Shown: piece by piece, positions 4,087-28,294 of the stretch
How positions within the stretch are numbered: position 1 is the first letter of the stretch
How the letters are laid out: each line of letters opens with the position of its first letter
NCBI GenBank assembly: GCA_021809545.1
Contig: JAKAYL010000015.1
Span: 1-33,864 of the forward strand
Origin: Thermoplasmata archaeon
GTDB lineage: Archaea; Thermoplasmatota; Thermoplasmata; Lutacidiplasmatales; UBA184
Direction of reading: 5' to 3'
DNA length: 33,864 bases
Notes under the pieces: model-generated
Told to the model about the DNA's origin: nothing
Database searches by the model: none
The model's input: the letters and a program-made list of their open reading frames with translations, nothing else
Made by a program: the position numbers and the translations under genes

Positions 4087-7000
4087 TTACTGGGACGGTG
4101 GCGGGTTGTGGTAGCCCGCTTGGGGCTCGTAGTACTGATCGTACGCAGGTTGCTTGGGTTTCCGGGAACGGGCCACGACCGCAATGACCGCGATGATCAA
4201 CACGGCGATGACGATCAGCATGGCCCAGAACCACCAGGGCGTCGCGGAACTTCCGCTGTTGGATTGGTTGGTACCCTGGGACACCGTGATGTTGGCGAAG
4301 GCGTGGCCAACGTTGCCGCTGCTGTCGGTGACCGTGAGTTCCACCATGTACGGGGTCGAGCGCGGGGTCGTGTACGTGTGGGCGGTCTGGGCATTGACCC
4401 CCGTGGAACCATCCCCGAAGTTCCAGGCGTAGCTGACGTAACTTCCGGAGCCACCCGAGGCGGCGGCGTCGAAGTCGACCGTCAGCGGTGATGAGCCGTT
4501 GACCGGGGAGGCCGCCAGAGCGACCGCCAACTGTCCGCTGATCGTGGGGTTGACCGAGACCGTGAGATGGTAGGGGTTCGCGGAGTGGCCCGCCGAATCG
4601 TTCACGTACATCGTGACCGTGAAGGTTCCGGTAGAGGTGTAGGTGTGAGACACCGTCGATCCACTGCCGGTTTGGCCATCCCCGAAGGACCAGCTGAAGG
4701 TGTACGGCGCCGTCCCTCCCTGGGCACTGCCCGTGAAATCACAGGTCAGTGGGATAGCCCCGGTCGTCGGGGTGGCGGTCGCGGTGGAGGTCAAAGATAC
4801 TGTGCCGTGACAGTTGCCGGTGACCGTGATCGCCGCGAGGGAAGAGGTGGCGGTGTGGCCGGAGCTGTCCGAGACGGTGACCGTGGGGGTATACTGACCC
4901 GCGGTACAGTACTGATTGCTGGGGTTCTGGGAGGCGCTGGTGTTGCCATCCCCGAAGATCCACGAGTAGGAGTAGGTTCCGCTGCCTCCGGCCGCAGTGG
5001 CCGTGAAGCTGACCGTGAGGGGAGCGGCCCCTGAAGTCGCGCTTTCCGTTGCCGTGACACCGAACACCGTGATGGCATCCGTGGCCGTGACCGGTGGAGC
5101 GGGACCCGAGGTCGCCGTGACCGAGACGGTTCCGGTGGCACCTGCCGTGGTCCCAGCGGTGAAGGTGTCCGAGGTGCCGGTCGTGGAGCTCAGGCTCCCG
5201 AGGGACGCCGCGGAGAGGCTCCAAGTGTAAGTGATGCCCGAACTCATGTTGTTCCCGTACTGGTCCTTGGCCTGGGCGTTGAAGGTCGTCGTGGACCCCT
5301 CTCCCAGAGTGAGGGACGTGGACGGAGAGATGGTCACGGAGGTTAGCGTGGGCGGAGAGTTGGTGATCGAAATGGTCGCGCAGGAGGGCCCTTTGGTAGT
5401 TCCAGAATACGTGCCGTTGACGCAGATCGTGACGTTACCTGTCGTCGTGCCCGCCGTGAAGGTCACCGCAGTGCCGGTGGACGCGTTCAAGCTACCCAGC
5501 GCGGTGCTCGACAGGGTCCAATTGAAGGTGGTCGACGAGGTGAGTGAACCACCATTGGTGCCGAGCGAGGTTGCCCCGAAGGCCTTGGTGCCACTAGGGT
5601 TGACCCCCACAGTACCGGTCGGGGAGATCGCAACCGAGGCCAGCGACACGGTTGTACTAACGGTCGTGGGATCGGATGCTTGTTTCACAAGACTATTGTA
5701 GCTGGCATTGACGTAGATGTTCCCGGTCACGGCGCTCGTTCCCGCGGTGAAGGTGACGGAAGTCCCCGTGGTGGAGCTCAGGCTGCCGAGCGTTGTGGGG
5801 GAGTAGGACCACGTGTAGGTAACCCCGCTCGTTATCGGACTTCCGGAGGTGTCCAGAGCCGAGGCCGTGAGCGTGGTAGTTGAGCTGGAGGCGGCGTTGA
5901 GCGGGTTGGGGGAGATCGAGGCGCTCGCCAAGGTCTGCGTGGTGTTGGTAACCCCGGTGTTGCAGTAGGCTGCGTTGGCGCCAGCGCACTTCCAGAGCGG
6001 CTCCAGGGGATTCCCTTCGGCCAGGTAGTCGTTCTGGATCATCGGGAACTGGTTCTTGGAAGGTGCGACGCCCCCAAGGTAGAAGGACGTCGGGTTCACA
6101 TTCATCTCGACCCGCTCCATCACGGCGAGGACGTTCGAGGTGTTGAAGGTCTGGTGGACTACGTAGCCACAGGAGCTGTAGGTGGCCGCGATCCCGCAGG
6201 TAGACGGGGCACCCCCGGTCTTCTCCACGGTGTGCGGGGCGACCATGACGAAGGGAAGGCGGCGGCCACTGTTCACGTGGTCGACCCCGTTCTGGCCGTT
6301 CTGGGTGTCGTCCTCAGTGATGGCGATGACGGTGTTCTTGCTGTAAGTCGTGGAATTCTCGATGGTCCCGACGACCGAGCTCATCGCCGCGTCGTTCCAC
6401 TGGATGCAAACGGACTGGGTCTGGCCGCAGTTGCCTCCGGGGTGATCATCGAAGAGCTCAACGAAGGTGTAGGTCGGGAGGCCGTAGTCCGCGACGTAGG
6501 CCTTGAAGGAGTTGGAAACGTAGGAGTCCAGGAAGGGGTTCGGGGCCGATCCCGAACAGGCGTACTGGCATTGCCAGAGCATCTGGGGGACTCCGGTCAC
6601 GGTATTGACGGCCGGGGGCATGTCGGGACTGCCGCTTGTGGTGTTGTACCACCAGCCGTTCGAGCAGCCAGTGACAACTTGGAGGGCACTCTGCGAGTCT
6701 CCCGGGATTGCCGAGGAGGACGCGAGTGTGCAACCCGGGCTGGAGAGCTCCCAGATGATGTCCCCATCGGAGAGGAAGGGTGGGGTTGTCTTGGATTGCG
6801 GAATGTTCGTCCCCAGGAAGCGGTCGAAGATCGAGCCTCCCGTGGTATCGTAGCTCTGGGAGCCGCTGTCGGAAGCCCAGGCACAGCTGCCGGACCTGAC
6901 ATTGGAGGCATTGTAGATCCCCCACTCCGTGGTCGCTCCCGTCCCCTCGACGCCGCCCGGCGCGCAGCTGTCGGTCGAGCCCCAACTGTTGGCCGTGAAA

Positions 7001-7461
7001 AGGTAAGCGTGGGCCTGGGCCGAGTACGGGTCGATGGAGGAGTACATGTTGTCGAAGACCGCATAGTTGCGGGCGAGGTGGTGCAGATTCGGGGTCAGGA
7101 GCTGATCCCCGCTGGGCGCGGTTTCGGTAGCTGAGGTTCCCGAGGTGGGGCTGGTGTAGGACTGGCCCCCATTGCAGGTGTCGTTGATGGTCAATGAGCA
7201 GTCCCCAAGATAGTCATCGAAGACATGGTTCTCGCGGACGATGTAAACGAAATGCGTGAGGTTCGTGGGGAACTCGGGAAGATTTCCACTCGCAAGCTTG
7301 GAGTAATTAAACGCCGGCTGCGAGGGAGCCGTCAACTTCTCTTGCAGTACGGGTCCGGACGAAGTCAGGGGGATTGCGAATCCAATAGCCCCCCCAGACA
7401 GCACCAGAATCGCACCCAACACTACGGCGAAACTCCCCCATTGTCTTACGGTAACGCGCAT
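4087..7461 (-). CDS. Secreted phosphoesterase with Ig-like and PKD repeats and C-terminal membrane anchor
   Basis: Large surface protein, 1124 residues. Layout: signal peptide or N-terminal anchor at about 9-31; phosphoesterase domain of the phospholipase C/acid phosphatase (AcpA-like, PF04185) type at about 65-480, with the metal-site motif VRENHVFDDY (E77, N78, H79), later TEDDTQNG (383-390) and GVDHV with H395; three Ig-like repeats at about 509-795, each with a TWS..LGSL.....GT...FTAGT pattern; three PKD domains at about 800-1060, each with an FGDG motif; one transmembrane helix near 1078-1098; and a short basic then Pro/Tyr-rich tail. Many N-x-S/T sites suggest glycosylation outside the cell. 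The ATG at 7461 is preferred over the adjacent TTG; GAGG lies about 5 nt upstream. The substrate is unknown; phosphate scavenging or phospholipid cleavage are possible. Confidence 0.87.
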   Translation of the reverse strand: MRVTVRQWGSFAVVLGAILVLSGGAIGFAIPLTSSGPVLQEKLTAPSQPAFNYSKLASGNLPEFPTNLTHFVYIVRENHVFDDYLGDCSLTINDTCNGGQSYTSPTSGTSATETAPSGDQLLTPNLHHLARNYAVFDNMYSSIDPYSAQAHAYLFTANSWGSTDSCAPGGVEGTGATTEWGIYNASNVRSGSCAWASDSGSQSYDTTGGSIFDRFLGTNIPQSKTTPPFLSDGDIIWELSSPGCTLASSSAIPGDSQSALQVVTGCSNGWWYNTTSGSPDMPPAVNTVTGVPQMLWQCQYACSGSAPNPFLDSYVSNSFKAYVADYGLPTYTFVELFDDHPGGNCGQTQSVCIQWNDAAMSSVVGTIENSTTYSKNTVIAITEDDTQNGQNGVDHVNSGRRLPFVMVAPHTVEKTGGAPSTCGIAATYSSCGYVVHQTFNTSNVLAVMERVEMNVNPTSFYLGGVAPSKNQFPMIQNDYLAEGNPLEPLWKCAGANAAYCNTGVTNTTQTLASASISPNPLNAASSSTTTLTASALDTSGSPITSGVTYTWSYSPTTLGSLSSTTGTSVTFTAGTSAVTGNIYVNASYNSLVKQASDPTTVSTTVSLASVAISPTGTVGVNPSGTKAFGATSLGTNGGSLTSSTTFNWTLSSTALGSLNASTGTAVTFTAGTTTGNVTICVNGTYSGTTKGPSCATISITNSPPTLTSVTISPSTSLTLGEGSTTTFNAQAKDQYGNNMSSGITYTWSLSAASLGSLSSTTGTSDTFTAGTTAGATGTVSVTATSGPAPPVTATDAITVFGVTATESATSGAAPLTVSFTATAAGGSGTYSYSWIFGDGNTSASQNPSNQYCTAGQYTPTVTVSDSSGHTATSSLAAITVTGNCHGTVSLTSTATATPTTGAIPLTCDFTGSAQGGTAPYTFSWSFGDGQTGSGSTVSHTYTSTGTFTVTMYVNDSAGHSANPYHLTVSVNPTISGQLAVALAASPVNGSSPLTVDFDAAASGGSGSYVSYAWNFGDGSTGVNAQTAHTYTTPRSTPYMVELTVTDSSGNVGHAFANITVSQGTNQSNSGSSATPWWFWAMLIVIAVLIIAVIAVVARSRKPKQPAYDQYYEPQAGYHNPPPSQ

Positions 7462-7494
7462 CAATCCTCGCGACTTTTTTGGCCAAGAGTCGAT

Positions 7495-11987: not shown

Positions 11988-12018
11988 AGTGTTGTGCGTA
12001 AGGAGGAGTTCTCAACCT

Positions 12019-13164
12019 ATGCGACCACTGGCACAGGAGATATTGTCAAGGATACCTGAGGAATCGAAGTCGTCCCGGCCCAGCCAGCAGGGCGGTCCTA
12101 CCACCGATGACCAGGAACTCGAGGCGGTCCTCGCCAGCCTGAAGACCAACATCAAAGTGGTCGGATGTGGCGGAGGGGGCTCCAACACGGTGAGCCGTCT
12201 CTTCGAGGAGGGAATCACCGGGGCCGACCTCATCGCCTGCAACACGGATGCCCAGCATCTCCTTACGATCAATTCCCAGCACAAGGTCCTCCTCGGACGC
12301 CGCTGCACGAGGGGACTCGGTGCCGGAGCCCAGCCCCAGGTGGGGGAACAGGCCGCCCGCGAGGCCGAGGACGAACTGAAGAAGCAACTGAACGGCGCGG
12401 ACCTGGTCTTCATCACCCTCGGGCTCGGAGGAGGCACGGGAACGGGCTCAGCCCCCGTCGTCGCCGAGGTCGCCCGAGACATCTCCCAGGGCAACTGTCT
12501 CGTCATGGCGGTCGCCACCTTCCCCTTCTCTGCGGAGGGCGAGGTCCGGAGGGAGAACGCCCTGCTCGGGCTGGAGCGCCTGAGCCATGTGGTCGACACC
12601 GTCATCACGGTGCCCAACGACAAGCTCCTCGAGCTGGTTCCCCGCCTCCCCCTCACGAGCGCCTTCAAGGTGGCCGACAGCGTGGTCGCGAACGCCATCA
12701 AGGGCATCACGGAGATCATCACGAAGCCCGGACTCGTCAACCTGGACTTCAACGACCTGCGGACCATCATGAAGGGGGGCGGCGTCGCCCTCATCGGTCT
12801 CGGACAGTCCGACTCGGACAACCGCGCCGAGGACGCGGTCAACGAGGCCCTGAACTCCCCACTGCTTCGCGTGGACACCCGCAACGCCCACGGCGCCCTC
12901 GTCAATGTGATCGGGGGTCCGGACATGACCGTCTCGGAGGCCCAAAAAGCGGCCGAGGTGGTCCAGAAGGCCATCAGCCCCACCGCCCGCATCATCTGGG
13001 GTGCCTCCGTGGACCCAACGCTCTCCAACACCATCCGCTGCATGGTCGTCGTGACGGGAGTCGATTCCCCCCAGCTCTTCAACCGGGAGCGCCCTCCCTC
13101 CTCGGTACCGCCCCCTCCCGGCGCCCGACGAACCAGCCCCCCGGGCATCGAAACCGTCTTCTAG
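12019..13164 (+). CDS. ftsZ1: Cell division protein FtsZ, FtsZ1 type
   Basis: Tubulin-like GTPase that forms the division ring; 381 residues. The N-terminal tail (1-45) is Ser/Pro/Gln-rich. Then come VVGCGGGGSNTVSRL (phosphate loop T1), ACNTDAQHL (T3), the tubulin signature LGGGTGTGSAPVVAE (T4) and the T7 loop GLVNLDFNDLRTIM with the catalytic acidic residues. The C terminus has a Pro-rich linker ending PPGIETVF, a short hydrophobic tail that may bind a membrane anchor such as SepF. The order ftsZ-secE-spt5-rpl11 is the context known for FtsZ1 in methanogens. The ATG at 12019 has AAGGAGGAG 10 nt upstream; an upstream TTG at 11989 would bypass this site. Confidence 0.95.
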   Translation: MRPLAQEILSRIPEESKSSRPSQQGGPTTDDQELEAVLASLKTNIKVVGCGGGGSNTVSRLFEEGITGADLIACNTDAQHLLTINSQHKVLLGRRCTRGLGAGAQPQVGEQAAREAEDELKKQLNGADLVFITLGLGGGTGTGSAPVVAEVARDISQGNCLVMAVATFPFSAEGEVRRENALLGLERLSHVVDTVITVPNDKLLELVPRLPLTSAFKVADSVVANAIKGITEIITKPGLVNLDFNDLRTIMKGGGVALIGLGQSDSDNRAEDAVNEALNSPLLRVDTRNAHGALVNVIGGPDMTVSEAQKAAEVVQKAISPTARIIWGASVDPTLSNTIRCMVVVTGVDSPQLFNRERPPSSVPPPPGARRTSPPGIETVF

Positions 13165-24317: not shown

Positions 24318-24328
24318 CTTTAGGTCTT
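24318..24328 (-). promoter_or_regulatory. Possible TATA element of the pilin-like gene
   Basis: The minus strand reads ACCTAAAGTAG, centred about 45 nt upstream of the GTG at 24277. It predicts a leader of about 20 nt that contains GAGGAG. It overlaps the stop of the upstream Pop5-like gene. Confidence 0.4.
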
Positions 24329-24649
24329 CCACTGGCTTGCGAGCCACTTCTTGCCCTTCCGGAGGGTGCCCCAGGTCCGGTAGGTACGGGCCCCTTGGCT
24401 GTTCCAGGCTCTCCGGGCGAGGGCCACGGCAGGAGAAGGGAGTTCCACTAACGCCGCCGACCGTCGAACCTTCACGACCCGGAACCGGAAACCCGCCACA
24501 GGGCCCACCAGGGAGCCCAGGATTCGGGAATAGGTTGCCGGGGAGTTTGCCTCCCCGGCGATGGTTACACCCAGGTACCGCTTCCGTGCGGGGGGCCTAC
24601 CGGACGAGGTCGATGGTCTCGGAGGACTCGCCGCTGGCGTAGCCGCCAC
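24320..24649 (-). CDS. Probable RNase P protein component 2 (Pop5/Rpp14-like)
   Basis: A 109-residue basic protein filling exactly the space between the ftsZ2 stop and the pilin-like promoter. From residue 22 it reads RKRYLGVTIAGE, then TYSRILGSLVGPVAGFRFRVVKV, a hydrophobic strand, VALARRAWNSQ and the C-terminal RTYRTWGTLRKGKKWLAS. This order (RYL..I strand, helix, strand, helix, R.....GT.+...+) matches archaeal Pop5, a protein of RNase P needed for 5' processing of tRNA. The only standard start is GTG at 24649, which overlaps ftsZ2 by 53 nt in another frame, so the first 20 residues are doubtful. The similarity is from memory and modest; an unrelated RNA-binding protein is the alternative. 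Confidence 0.5.
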   Translation of the reverse strand: MAATPAASPPRPSTSSGRPPARKRYLGVTIAGEANSPATYSRILGSLVGPVAGFRFRVVKVRRSAALVELPSPAVALARRAWNSQGARTYRTWGTLRKGKKWLASQWKT

Positions 24650-25739
24650 CCTTCGATCCCAGGAGGTTCGCTGCCCGCACTCCGGTGATGATCAGGAGCA
24701 CCTTGATGGAGTTCTCCATCTCGGGAGAGGGGTCCACAGTGCATCCCCAGATGATCCGGGCGCGCTTCGAGATCCGAGAGCCGACGATCTCCGCTGCCTT
24801 CTGGGCCTCGCTGACGGTCATGGAGGCTCCGCCGATGACCCGAACCAGGGCTCCGTGGGCGTCCTTGAGGTCGACGTCTCCCAAGAGCGGCGAGTTCAGG
24901 GCTTCGCCGACGGCCTGCGTCACTCGGTCGGTGGTGTCTTCGCTCTCCCCCAGTCCGATGAGGGCCACGCCGCCATCCTTCATGACGGTCATGAGGTCCG
25001 CGTAGTCCAGGTTCACGAGGCCGGGCTTCGTCACGATCTCAGTGATCCCCTTGATCGCGGTCATGAGGACCGTGTCGGCCAGCTTGAAGGCGGCATCGAG
25101 AGGCATCCGAGGCGCCAGTTCGAGGAGCTTGTCGTTCTGGATGACGATCGTGGTGTCGCACATCGAGCGCATGCGCTCGAGGCCATCCTTCGCTTCTTCC
25201 ATACGGACGCTGCCCTCGGCACTGAAGGGAAGGGTGGTCACGCCCATGACGAGCGCCCCCATCTCCTTCGCGATCCGGGCGGCCACAGGTGCCGAACCCG
25301 TTCCGGTCCCGCCTCCCATTCCGGCGGTGACGAAGACGATGTTGGATCCCTGCAGGAACGTGCGGATCTCCTCCTCATTCTCGCGAGCGGCCTCCTCGCC
25401 GATCTCCGGGCGGGCTCCCGCCCCGAGGCCTTTCGTGGCCCGCTTGCCAATGAGGATCTTCCGGGGAGAGTGGATGGTGATGAGGTGCTTGGCATCGGTG
25501 TTGATGGCGCACATCTCCGCTCCTTGGATTCCTTCCTCGGTGCAGCGGTTGATGGTGTTGCAGCCACCGCCCCCGCATCCCATGATTTTGATGTTGACCT
25601 TGAGTTGCTCTGCGAGCTTCGCAAGTTCCTCGTCGTCGGGACTCGGCGCAATAGGTGTGGTGGGTCCCGTGGGTCTCCTGTCGTCGATGTTGCGTCCCTG
25701 CTGGTGGCGTGCCAGTGCCTCCTGCACTATGGATTTCAT
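24597..25739 (-). CDS. ftsZ2: Cell division protein FtsZ, FtsZ2 type
   Basis: Second tubulin-like division GTPase, 380 residues. The N terminus MKSIVQEALARHQQG and the T1 loop IMGCGGGGCNTINR are typical of archaeal FtsZ2. INTDAKHL, GMGGGTGTGSAPVAAR (T4) and GLVNLDYADLMTVM (T7) follow. The C-terminal tail is short and Gly/Ser-rich, ending ETIDLVR. FtsZ1 and FtsZ2 act together in euryarchaeal division, FtsZ2 mainly in constriction (known from Haloferax). The ATG at 25739 has GGGAGA upstream. The leader holds two palindromes directly after the TATA box, which suggests separate control from ftsZ1. It probably shares a transcript with the Pop5-like gene. Confidence 0.95.
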   Translation of the reverse strand: MKSIVQEALARHQQGRNIDDRRPTGPTTPIAPSPDDEELAKLAEQLKVNIKIMGCGGGGCNTINRCTEEGIQGAEMCAINTDAKHLITIHSPRKILIGKRATKGLGAGARPEIGEEAARENEEEIRTFLQGSNIVFVTAGMGGGTGTGSAPVAARIAKEMGALVMGVTTLPFSAEGSVRMEEAKDGLERMRSMCDTTIVIQNDKLLELAPRMPLDAAFKLADTVLMTAIKGITEIVTKPGLVNLDYADLMTVMKDGGVALIGLGESEDTTDRVTQAVGEALNSPLLGDVDLKDAHGALVRVIGGASMTVSEAQKAAEIVGSRISKRARIIWGCTVDPSPEMENSIKVLLIITGVRAANLLGSKGGGYASGESSETIDLVR

Positions 25740-26059: not shown

Positions 26060-26713
26060 CTATTCCTTGTGATGGACGCGGGTCGGGTCCAGTGTCTGGA
26101 CGAGGAGGCGCCCTGGGCCTTGAACCTTCAGGCATTCGAAGCTCATGGCGTGGCCCATGAGTCCCCCTCCGAGGGGCTGGTTGAACGACTGCAACTGGAC
26201 CGAGGCGTCCTTCATTAGGAGGGCCCCGTGGTCGATCTCCACCAATTCTCCCTGGGCCAGGGTGAAGGAGAGCACGTTCCCGTGCCCATGGTAGACGACG
26301 GTGCCCGGTCCGGTCAGCCGGTCCATCCAGAAGCCGATCATGCGGCCGATCCGTCCGGTGCCCTGGACATAGAAGGTGTCGTATTGCACCGTATTGGTGG
26401 CGAGGAGAAGGGAGTGCTCGGCGATGTCCAACGTTTCCCCGGGCTGAAGGTCGATGCTCCGTATTTCGCCGGGGGAGAATCGGGAGAAGGCGGCGTAGCC
26501 GGGTCCCGTGTAGGTGTGCATGAAGAAGGGGATTCCTCCCACCAGGGTGCGTTTCATCGTCTGTCCGAACCCGCCCTGGGTGAGCGGACGGATGCCGACC
26601 TGGACGGAGGGGTCTGAATAGACCATGAGTCCCCCCTCGCAGAACACCTCCTCTCCCGGGGCCAGTTGGGTCAGGGCGACCGGGATGAATTCTCCTCGAA
26701 CGTCCAGCTTCAT
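26060..26713 (-). CDS. AIM24 family protein, paralogue 1 (last gene of the operon)
   Basis: A 217-residue beta-rich protein of the AIM24/TIGR00266 family (PF01987). Members adopt a TRAP-like beta fold, and the mitochondrial one affects membrane organisation; the prokaryotic role is unknown. Three GPG-type turns are visible: YTGPGYAAFSRFSPGE, DRLTGPGTVVYHGHGNVLSFTL and VQGPGRLLVQTLDP, together with GRMIGFWMDRL. It is closer to paralogue 3 than to paralogue 2: both share RMIG.WMDRL, the GALxx...V strand and P.GGGL.G...SFE. No signal peptide or membrane helix. The ATG at 26713 overlaps the stop of paralogue 2 (ATGA), so translation is coupled. Confidence 0.88.
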   Translation of the reverse strand: MKLDVRGEFIPVALTQLAPGEEVFCEGGLMVYSDPSVQVGIRPLTQGGFGQTMKRTLVGGIPFFMHTYTGPGYAAFSRFSPGEIRSIDLQPGETLDIAEHSLLLATNTVQYDTFYVQGTGRIGRMIGFWMDRLTGPGTVVYHGHGNVLSFTLAQGELVEIDHGALLMKDASVQLQSFNQPLGGGLMGHAMSFECLKVQGPGRLLVQTLDPTRVHHKE

Positions 26714-27426
26714 AGCCCGCTGTGCACCATCACAACGCCCGGTCCGGTGAGGTCGAGAACAGGGATCGCGTTGTTGGGTTGAAATCCGCCCATTTGCATG
26801 CCACCCGCGAAGGGGGAGTTCATTTGAAAGCCTCCTCCGAAGGGAGAGTTCATCGGCATGCCGGCAAGCCAGTTCAGATTCAGTGTGACCGTGTTTTCGA
26901 GGGCCAGAAGTCCGTGAACGGAGGTCCGGATCGTCTCCCCCGGCTGTAACTGGAAGCTCAGGATGTTCCCGTAGGACTGGAAGACGATACCTCCGGGTCC
27001 CGTCAGTTCGTCGGCAAAGATGTAGTTTACCTCCTGATCGTCCCCCGCCCCGGTCACCCATCGGGCGAGGACCATGGGGTAGTACCGTACCGACTCATCG
27101 AAGCAGACCAAGTGCCCGGAGCGGACCCTCAGTCCCTGCTGCGGGTTGAGGTTAAGGATGCGGGCATCCCCGCTCCGGTCCCGGGAGAAGGTGACGTGTC
27201 CCGGCCCCTCGAACTCGGCGAAGAAGTAGTTCTCTTCGTTGTCCCCGGTGGCGTGCATGCCCATGAGGTGGGCCCGGCTGACCCCGAGAGAGCGCTGGGT
27301 CCGCCGCTGCAGCTTTACGGTGGGTTCCATGTAGAGCATGATACCGTGCTCGGAGAGCACCTTCTCGCCGGTGTTCAAGGTCACGAGGATCGCCGGCGTT
27401 ATGCTTCCCACAGTATCTGCTTTCAT
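26710..27426 (-). CDS. AIM24 family protein, paralogue 2, with Met/Gly/Phe-rich insert
   Basis: A 238-residue AIM24 family protein. It shows FEGPGHVTFSRDRSGDARILNL, ELTGPGGIVFQSYGNILSFQL and DLTGPGVVMVHSGL. It differs from its neighbours by a low-complexity insert near 185-215 built from repeats of MNSPFGGG and MNSPFAGG type, placed before the last GPG strand. The repeat is also visible in the DNA (GAAGGGxGAGTTCAT twice near 26817 and 26840). The insert may be flexible or mediate self-association. ATG at 27426 with GGAGAAAAG upstream, 27 nt after the zinc-ribbon gene stop; overlaps paralogue 1 by 4 nt. Confidence 0.87.
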   Translation of the reverse strand: MKADTVGSITPAILVTLNTGEKVLSEHGIMLYMEPTVKLQRRTQRSLGVSRAHLMGMHATGDNEENYFFAEFEGPGHVTFSRDRSGDARILNLNPQQGLRVRSGHLVCFDESVRYYPMVLARWVTGAGDDQEVNYIFADELTGPGGIVFQSYGNILSFQLQPGETIRTSVHGLLALENTVTLNLNWLAGMPMNSPFGGGFQMNSPFAGGMQMGGFQPNNAIPVLDLTGPGVVMVHSGL

Positions 27427-27453
27427 GGTTCTTCTTTTCTCCTTCCGGAGCCC

Positions 27454-27630
27454 CTATTCGTTGACCTCAAGGGCGTAGCTGGTACCGCAATACCCACACT
27501 TCATGTACCCGTCCTTGACGCTCTCGGAGCCCACTTTGGCCCCGCAACTCCGGCACTTGACTTCCTTGATCGTCGCTCGGCTGACGGTGACTTCTGTCCG
27601 TTTCTTCACGAACTCGTCTGGTATCGGCAT
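27454..27630 (-). CDS. 58-residue zinc-ribbon protein in the AIM24 operon
   Basis: A small gene read directly from the bases on the minus strand: MPIPDEFVKKRTEVTV at the start, then KCRSCGAKVGS and YMKCGYCGTSYALEVNE to a TAG stop. Two CxxCG knuckles at C27/C30 and C45/C48, 14 residues apart, form a zinc ribbon. The N terminus is a short charged helix. GGAGAAAGGAAG precedes the ATG. It lies between AIM24 paralogues 3 and 2, with gaps of 16 and 27 nt, so it is part of the operon and may be the binding partner or regulator of the AIM24 proteins. I do not know a named family. Confidence 0.88.
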   Translation of the reverse strand: MPIPDEFVKKRTEVTVSRATIKEVKCRSCGAKVGSESVKDGYMKCGYCGTSYALEVNE

Positions 27631-27646
27631 GTTCTTCCTTTCTCCG

Positions 27647-28294
27647 CTAGTAATGAGGTTGCTTGGGATCGACGCTCTGGAGGGCCACCTTGCCGGGCCC
27701 GATGAGCTCGAGCGCCTCGAAGGACTCCAACTTCCCCAGGAGTCCGCCCCCGAAGGGGATGTTCAGTGTCCGGGTCTGCACCGTGCCGCTCTTGTAGAAG
27801 AGCGCCCCGAAGTCGCAGAGGACCACCTCGCGAGGAGCCAGTGTCATCGAGATGATGTTCCCGTAACCGTGGATCGCGAGCTTCCCAGGCCCGATGAGCC
27901 GGTCCATCCACAAACCGATCATCCGCCCCGGGCGATTGGTTCCTTTGATGTAGGACATGTCGTAGCGGAGCGTGTTCTCCGCGCAGACGAGCGAACCGTC
28001 GGCCACGTCGATCTCCTCGTTCACCGCCAGTTCGAGCACGCGGAGTTCCCCCACTCCGTCCCGGGAAAACGCCACGTGACCCGGTCCTACGAACTCCGTG
28101 AGGAAGTAAGGGATCCCCCCCACCGTGTTGCGCTCCATGGTCTTCAGAAAGCCTCCGCCGGCGGTGTTCTTCCGGTCCACCCTCACCTGCGGTTCCTTGT
28201 AGAGCATGATCCCGTGCTCACAGAAGACCGAATCTTGGGGACCGAGGGTGGCGAGGATGGAGGGAACTATGCCCGGGACAACTTCCAGATCCAC
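27647..28294 (-). CDS. AIM24 family protein, paralogue 3 (first gene of the operon)
   Basis: A 215-residue AIM24 family protein. It shows SVFCEHGIMLYKEPQVRV (shared with paralogue 2 as LSEHGIMLYMEPTVKL), FVGPGHVAFSRDGVGELRVLEL, GRMIGLWMDRLIGPG, HGYGNIISMTL and LIGPGKVALQSVDP. It is cytoplasmic by sequence. The start is GTG at 28294 with AGGTGA just upstream; a TATA-like GTTTATC at 28331-28339 predicts a leader of about 15 nt. It leads the operon paralogue 3 - zinc ribbon - paralogue 2 - paralogue 1. Confidence 0.88.
   Translation of the reverse strand: MDLEVVPGIVPSILATLGPQDSVFCEHGIMLYKEPQVRVDRKNTAGGGFLKTMERNTVGGIPYFLTEFVGPGHVAFSRDGVGELRVLELAVNEEIDVADGSLVCAENTLRYDMSYIKGTNRPGRMIGLWMDRLIGPGKLAIHGYGNIISMTLAPREVVLCDFGALFYKSGTVQTRTLNIPFGGGLLGKLESFEALELIGPGKVALQSVDPKQPHY

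Follow-up and report, generated by a model that had tools for sequence, protein, structure and literature searches.

Four adjacent genes on the minus strand (28294-26060) of the 33,864-nucleotide stretch of DNA analysed here, the window, encode three diverged paralogues of the AIM24 family and a small zinc ribbon, ZR, in the order A, ZR, B, C. The genes form an operon-like cassette, and it is probable (roughly 0.6) that their products assemble into one hetero-oligomer, in which A, B and C would form a heterotrimeric ring serving as a membrane scaffold and ZR would be a subunit or assembly factor. The computed evidence comprises the cassette, its conservation, the association of ZR with it, and the repeats and fold of C. 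We lean towards a lineage-specific hetero-oligomeric AIM24 ring of which the zinc ribbon is an obligate subunit. To our knowledge this would be the first heteromeric AIM24 assembly.

Genes of the cassette and predicted fold of their products

Gene A (27647-28294, minus strand) has a GTG start and encodes 215 residues that match the AIM24 profile PF01987 at 1.2e-31 (110.4 bits). It is followed by ZR (27454-27630, minus strand), a protein of 58 residues with a conserved N-terminal segment, MPIPDEFVKKRTEVTVSRA, and two CxxC pairs (CRSCG...CGYCG). B (26710-27426, minus strand; 238 residues) is the fastest evolving of the paralogues and matches PF01987 at 1.6e-23 (83.9 bits), and C (26060-26713, minus strand; 217 residues) does so at 1.7e-34 (119.7 bits). 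All three exceed the curated cut-off of 25.7 bits and are thus members of the family, so that the three AIM24 paralogues and two-CxxC ribbon recognised in an earlier note on this DNA are borne out, as are the gaps of 16 nt (A-ZR) and 27 nt (ZR-B) and the ATGA overlap of B and C. Against the equivalog model TIGR00266, C, B and A score 35.5, 30.5 and 32.0 bits, all below the NCBIfam cut-off of 96.6. A profile search of the window's genome found A, B and C as its sole AIM24 genes. Orthologues of A from cassettes show 49-81% identity (10-sequence set), and omega values of 0.02-0.18 for all four genes, from the window and two close relatives, indicate purifying selection.

Structures were predicted for C and ZR as single chains. 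The best Foldseek matches of the AlphaFold2 model of C (pLDDT 85.7, pTM 0.82) are the AIM24 structures 1yox and 1pg6. C contains three internal repeats (hhalign E 4e-9 to 4e-5, probability 70-96%), each with a GPG motif, spaced by ~65 residues; the loops preceding these motifs are less confidently modelled, the first loop having the lowest confidence. The internal repeats and the predicted AIM24 fold together assign C a three-repeat β fold at the level of the model. A and B, for which 1yox and 1pg6 are the PDB relatives by sequence, are expected from this match to share it. Plant AIM24 proteins modelled from the same two structures are described as having three TRAP-like repeats and forming a homotrimeric ring, and the kinship to TRAP (MtrB) given there is one of fold (PMC6677890). 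The TRAP-like fold named in the earlier note agrees with the literature as far as it was drawn on here (PMC3975624, PMC6677890). The link to RNA that it had thought conceivable finds no such backing: significant Foldseek matches were to AIM24 structures only, and TRAP is absent among the matches listed.

An Rfam scan of the window gave no named RNA element at gathering scores. After the cassette and on the same strand lies the second FtsZ-like gene of the window (24597-25739, minus strand), found by Pfam, which among the loci compared adjoins the cassette only in the same-genus locus L035. Its end is overlapped by an unannotated 109-residue frame (24320-24649, minus strand) that is kept in L035 (105 bits). 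The first FtsZ-like gene (11989-13164, plus strand) was recognised by eye from its sequence. A frame of 1125 residues (4087-7464, minus strand), also read by eye, apparently encodes a secreted or surface-anchored protein: its start is signal-like, it contains Ig/PKD-like repeats, and it has a hydrophobic stretch at the C-terminal end.

Conservation of the cassette across loci and genomes

Loss of the gene order or of the ribbon in relatives had been named beforehand as an argument against an assembly; both are kept in ~40 loci, which carry the genes as A-ZR-B-C or, in a second subtype, as ZR-A-B-C. Median gaps over the loci are 16 nt (A-ZR), 9 nt (ZR-B) and 4 nt (B-C), and overlaps are frequent. 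Most loci have flanks of their own, without a recurrent fifth gene. Chance adjacency is ruled out because order, spacing and ZR recur in these ~40 loci while the flanks change. A Ter-like metal or stress-response module was considered because AIM24 adjoins terD in some bacteria. In Psychrobacter an AIM24 gene accompanies ter genes (PMC5822837), and an Acidithiobacillus plasmid has a single AIM24 gene surrounded by genes for metal efflux, but no gene family is a regular neighbour of most cassettes, and this explanation is most improbable. The Ter system itself was rejected, the window's genome containing no match to TerD (PF02342).

A survey of 106 genomes covered the window's order, Lutacidiplasmatales, described as acid-soil archaea of the Thermoplasmatota (PMC9287336). 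Named cassette carriers are Thermoplasmata MAGs and include Candidatus Lutacidiplasma silvani. AIM24 occurs in 41 of the 106 genomes: exactly three copies are present in 32, three plus a fragment in a single genome, six full copies in four (of which one also has a fragment at the edge of a contig) and one copy in four; no genome has two. In two of the one-copy genomes the set is interrupted by contig ends (G156; G198, locus L111), and the other two have a lone bacterial-type AIM24 without ZR. Full-length ZR is present in 38 of the 106, all AIM24-positive, and absent from all 65 genomes of the order without AIM24. One of these (G057) retains a broken ZR remnant that is missing the second CxxC (L121 5835-6071, minus strand), which suggests that the cassette was lost there.

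In samples of the phylum, ZR matches above 110 bits are confined to the order. Outside it, genomes matching the C profile have one match each, and lone AIM24 genes are the rule, in line with the expectation that single genes are common. Two AIM24 genes ~1.6 kb apart (L122 3751-4461 and 6028-6729, minus strand) were seen in a member of the class from a different family, one of them on a long branch in the tree. Viral contigs scanned with C and ZR gave no relative, and a viral origin was rejected.

Four genomes carry two cassettes, and the second cassettes, where present, hold complete A, B and C. ZR is missing from the second cassette in three of these genomes and is truncated in the fourth, with loss of the second CxxC (L108); each two-cassette genome therefore has one intact ZR. 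A further A gene, in locus L075 (1980-2598; same genome as L057), is in two pieces, owing either to misassembly or to decay of this copy.

The copy numbers bear on a different arrangement, in which each paralogue makes a homo-oligomer of its own, the three acting in one pathway and being co-transcribed for convenience, and ZR is a regulator or partner common to them. In its favour, AIM24 evidently functions from a lone gene elsewhere, paralogues that have diverged frequently adopt distinct roles, and the evolution of B is faster than that of A and C. However, independent homo-oligomers would be expected to suffer single losses in some lineages. Copy number instead keeps to threes: neither pairs nor partial losses are seen, and the second cassettes contain all three paralogues. 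We consider separate homo-oligomers unlikely, if the most serious of the alternatives. The hetero-oligomer that we prefer has its own difficulties. Two genomes of one genus have A at a distance from ZR-B-C, which counts against a ring: in G094 it lies on a different contig (L039/L040), and in G156 (L115) ~7 kb separate it from ZR. The fast divergence of B could reflect a role outside the ring, and any obligate functional partnership, of which a ring is only one, would account for the co-conservation.

The tree comes from a rapid search in which long branches were flagged. It sets A, B and C together apart from other Thermoplasmata AIM24 and from bacterial plasmid AIM24 with a support of 94. 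The C and B clades are recovered with 95% and 100% SH-aLRT, respectively; A is not recovered as a clade, 2 changes being needed. An origin of A, B and C as one family from one triplication before the radiation of the order is therefore likely only. The heteromeric assembly put forward in the earlier note is thus upheld indirectly, though shorn of RNA, by the kept order amid changing flanks, the copies in threes, the strict co-occurrence of ZR and paralogues that are recognisable order-wide.

The zinc ribbon and the proposed ring

ZR matches no named Pfam or NCBIfam zinc-ribbon family above the curated cut-off, the best matches lying below. Among 34 sequences, P2, P4, E6, F7, K9, K10, R11, E13, T15 and the four cysteines are invariant, M1, V14, S17 and A19 are nearly so, and residues 20-25 are variable. 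The single-chain structure prediction is poor (pLDDT 60, lowest at residues 7-22), and these worst-predicted residues hold part of the strongly conserved segment 1-19. An N-terminal segment that is conserved yet predicted to be unstructured alone fits folding upon binding; the low confidence of the model also has other causes, as ZR was modelled as a lone short chain without zinc. Because its closest other matches in the samples are ribbons that end larger frames with hydrophobic N-terminal stretches (e.g. L123 4450-4863 and L124 4407-4931, +), ZR may have descended from a membrane-anchored ribbon, which we offer as a lead only.

Many of the small zinc ribbons of archaea work with nucleic acids or RNA polymerase, and ZR might accordingly be a transcription or translation factor for the AIM24 genes and not a subunit. 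Its profile similarities to eL43 and RNA polymerase subunit P (E 0.03-0.1) point the same way but are weak and generic, and the single intact ZR per two cassettes fits a subunit and a regulator equally well. A purely regulatory role is in our judgement rather improbable.

For the preferred hetero-oligomer we infer a heterotrimer to which ZR binds. Each AIM24 chain would consist of three tandem TRAP-like β repeats, and A, B and C would each supply one third of a nine-repeat ring, by analogy with PCNA1-2-3; other AIM24 members are thought to be homotrimers with nine repeats per ring. ZR would take part as a distinct subunit or as an assembly factor; its ribbon would be a small, folded knob, and the N-terminal segment would fold once bound to the ring. 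The ring would probably act as a scaffold at the cytoplasmic membrane, like eukaryotic AIM24 proteins, and a membrane link is plausible from what is described for yeast Aim24 (PMC3975624). If this is correct, each of the nine repeat positions has its own identity and a small metal protein has a defined place at a membrane scaffold. Three fixed subunits and a companion would separate positions that a homotrimer makes identical, and subunit-specific conservation can therefore point to working faces. ZR would also be a candidate partner for AIM24, a family with few known prokaryotic partners.

Comparison with known systems

The cassette paralogues belong by profile score to the AIM24 family (PF01987; 1yox, 1pg6; TIGR00266), C also by predicted fold. 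Unlike typical AIM24, which is encoded by one gene, the cassette is a fixed unit of three diverged paralogues and a dedicated zinc ribbon; five bacterial plasmid loci have a single AIM24 gene each. One plasmid protein, from Candidatus Chlorohelix (WP_341472007.1), has its own N-terminal ribbon-like CPACG/CRCG segment (Pfam E-value 0.0035, weak). It resembles the cassette in combining AIM24 with a CxxCG...CxCG segment, here joined in one chain, but is one gene with a different ribbon type. Given the low Pfam score and the unlike ribbons, this chain lends weak support to a link between AIM24 and ZR.

Yeast Aim24 and plant PAWH1/2 share the AIM24 domain with the cassette proteins and are described as membrane-associated (PMC3975624, PMC6677890), yeast Aim24 being firmly membrane-bound in a complex of ~400 kDa (PMC3975624). 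They differ in being eukaryotic, and the modelled PAWH trimer is a homotrimer; a zinc-ribbon partner is not met for either in the parts of the two papers used here (PMC3975624, PMC6677890). A search of the open-licence literature for AIM24 in archaea, in operons or as paralogues returned no description of the cassette. Sulfolobus PCNA1-2-3 forms a heterotrimeric ring where others have a homotrimer. The likeness lies in the heterotrimer taking the place of a homotrimer; fold and function are unrelated, and the comparison is one of analogy only.
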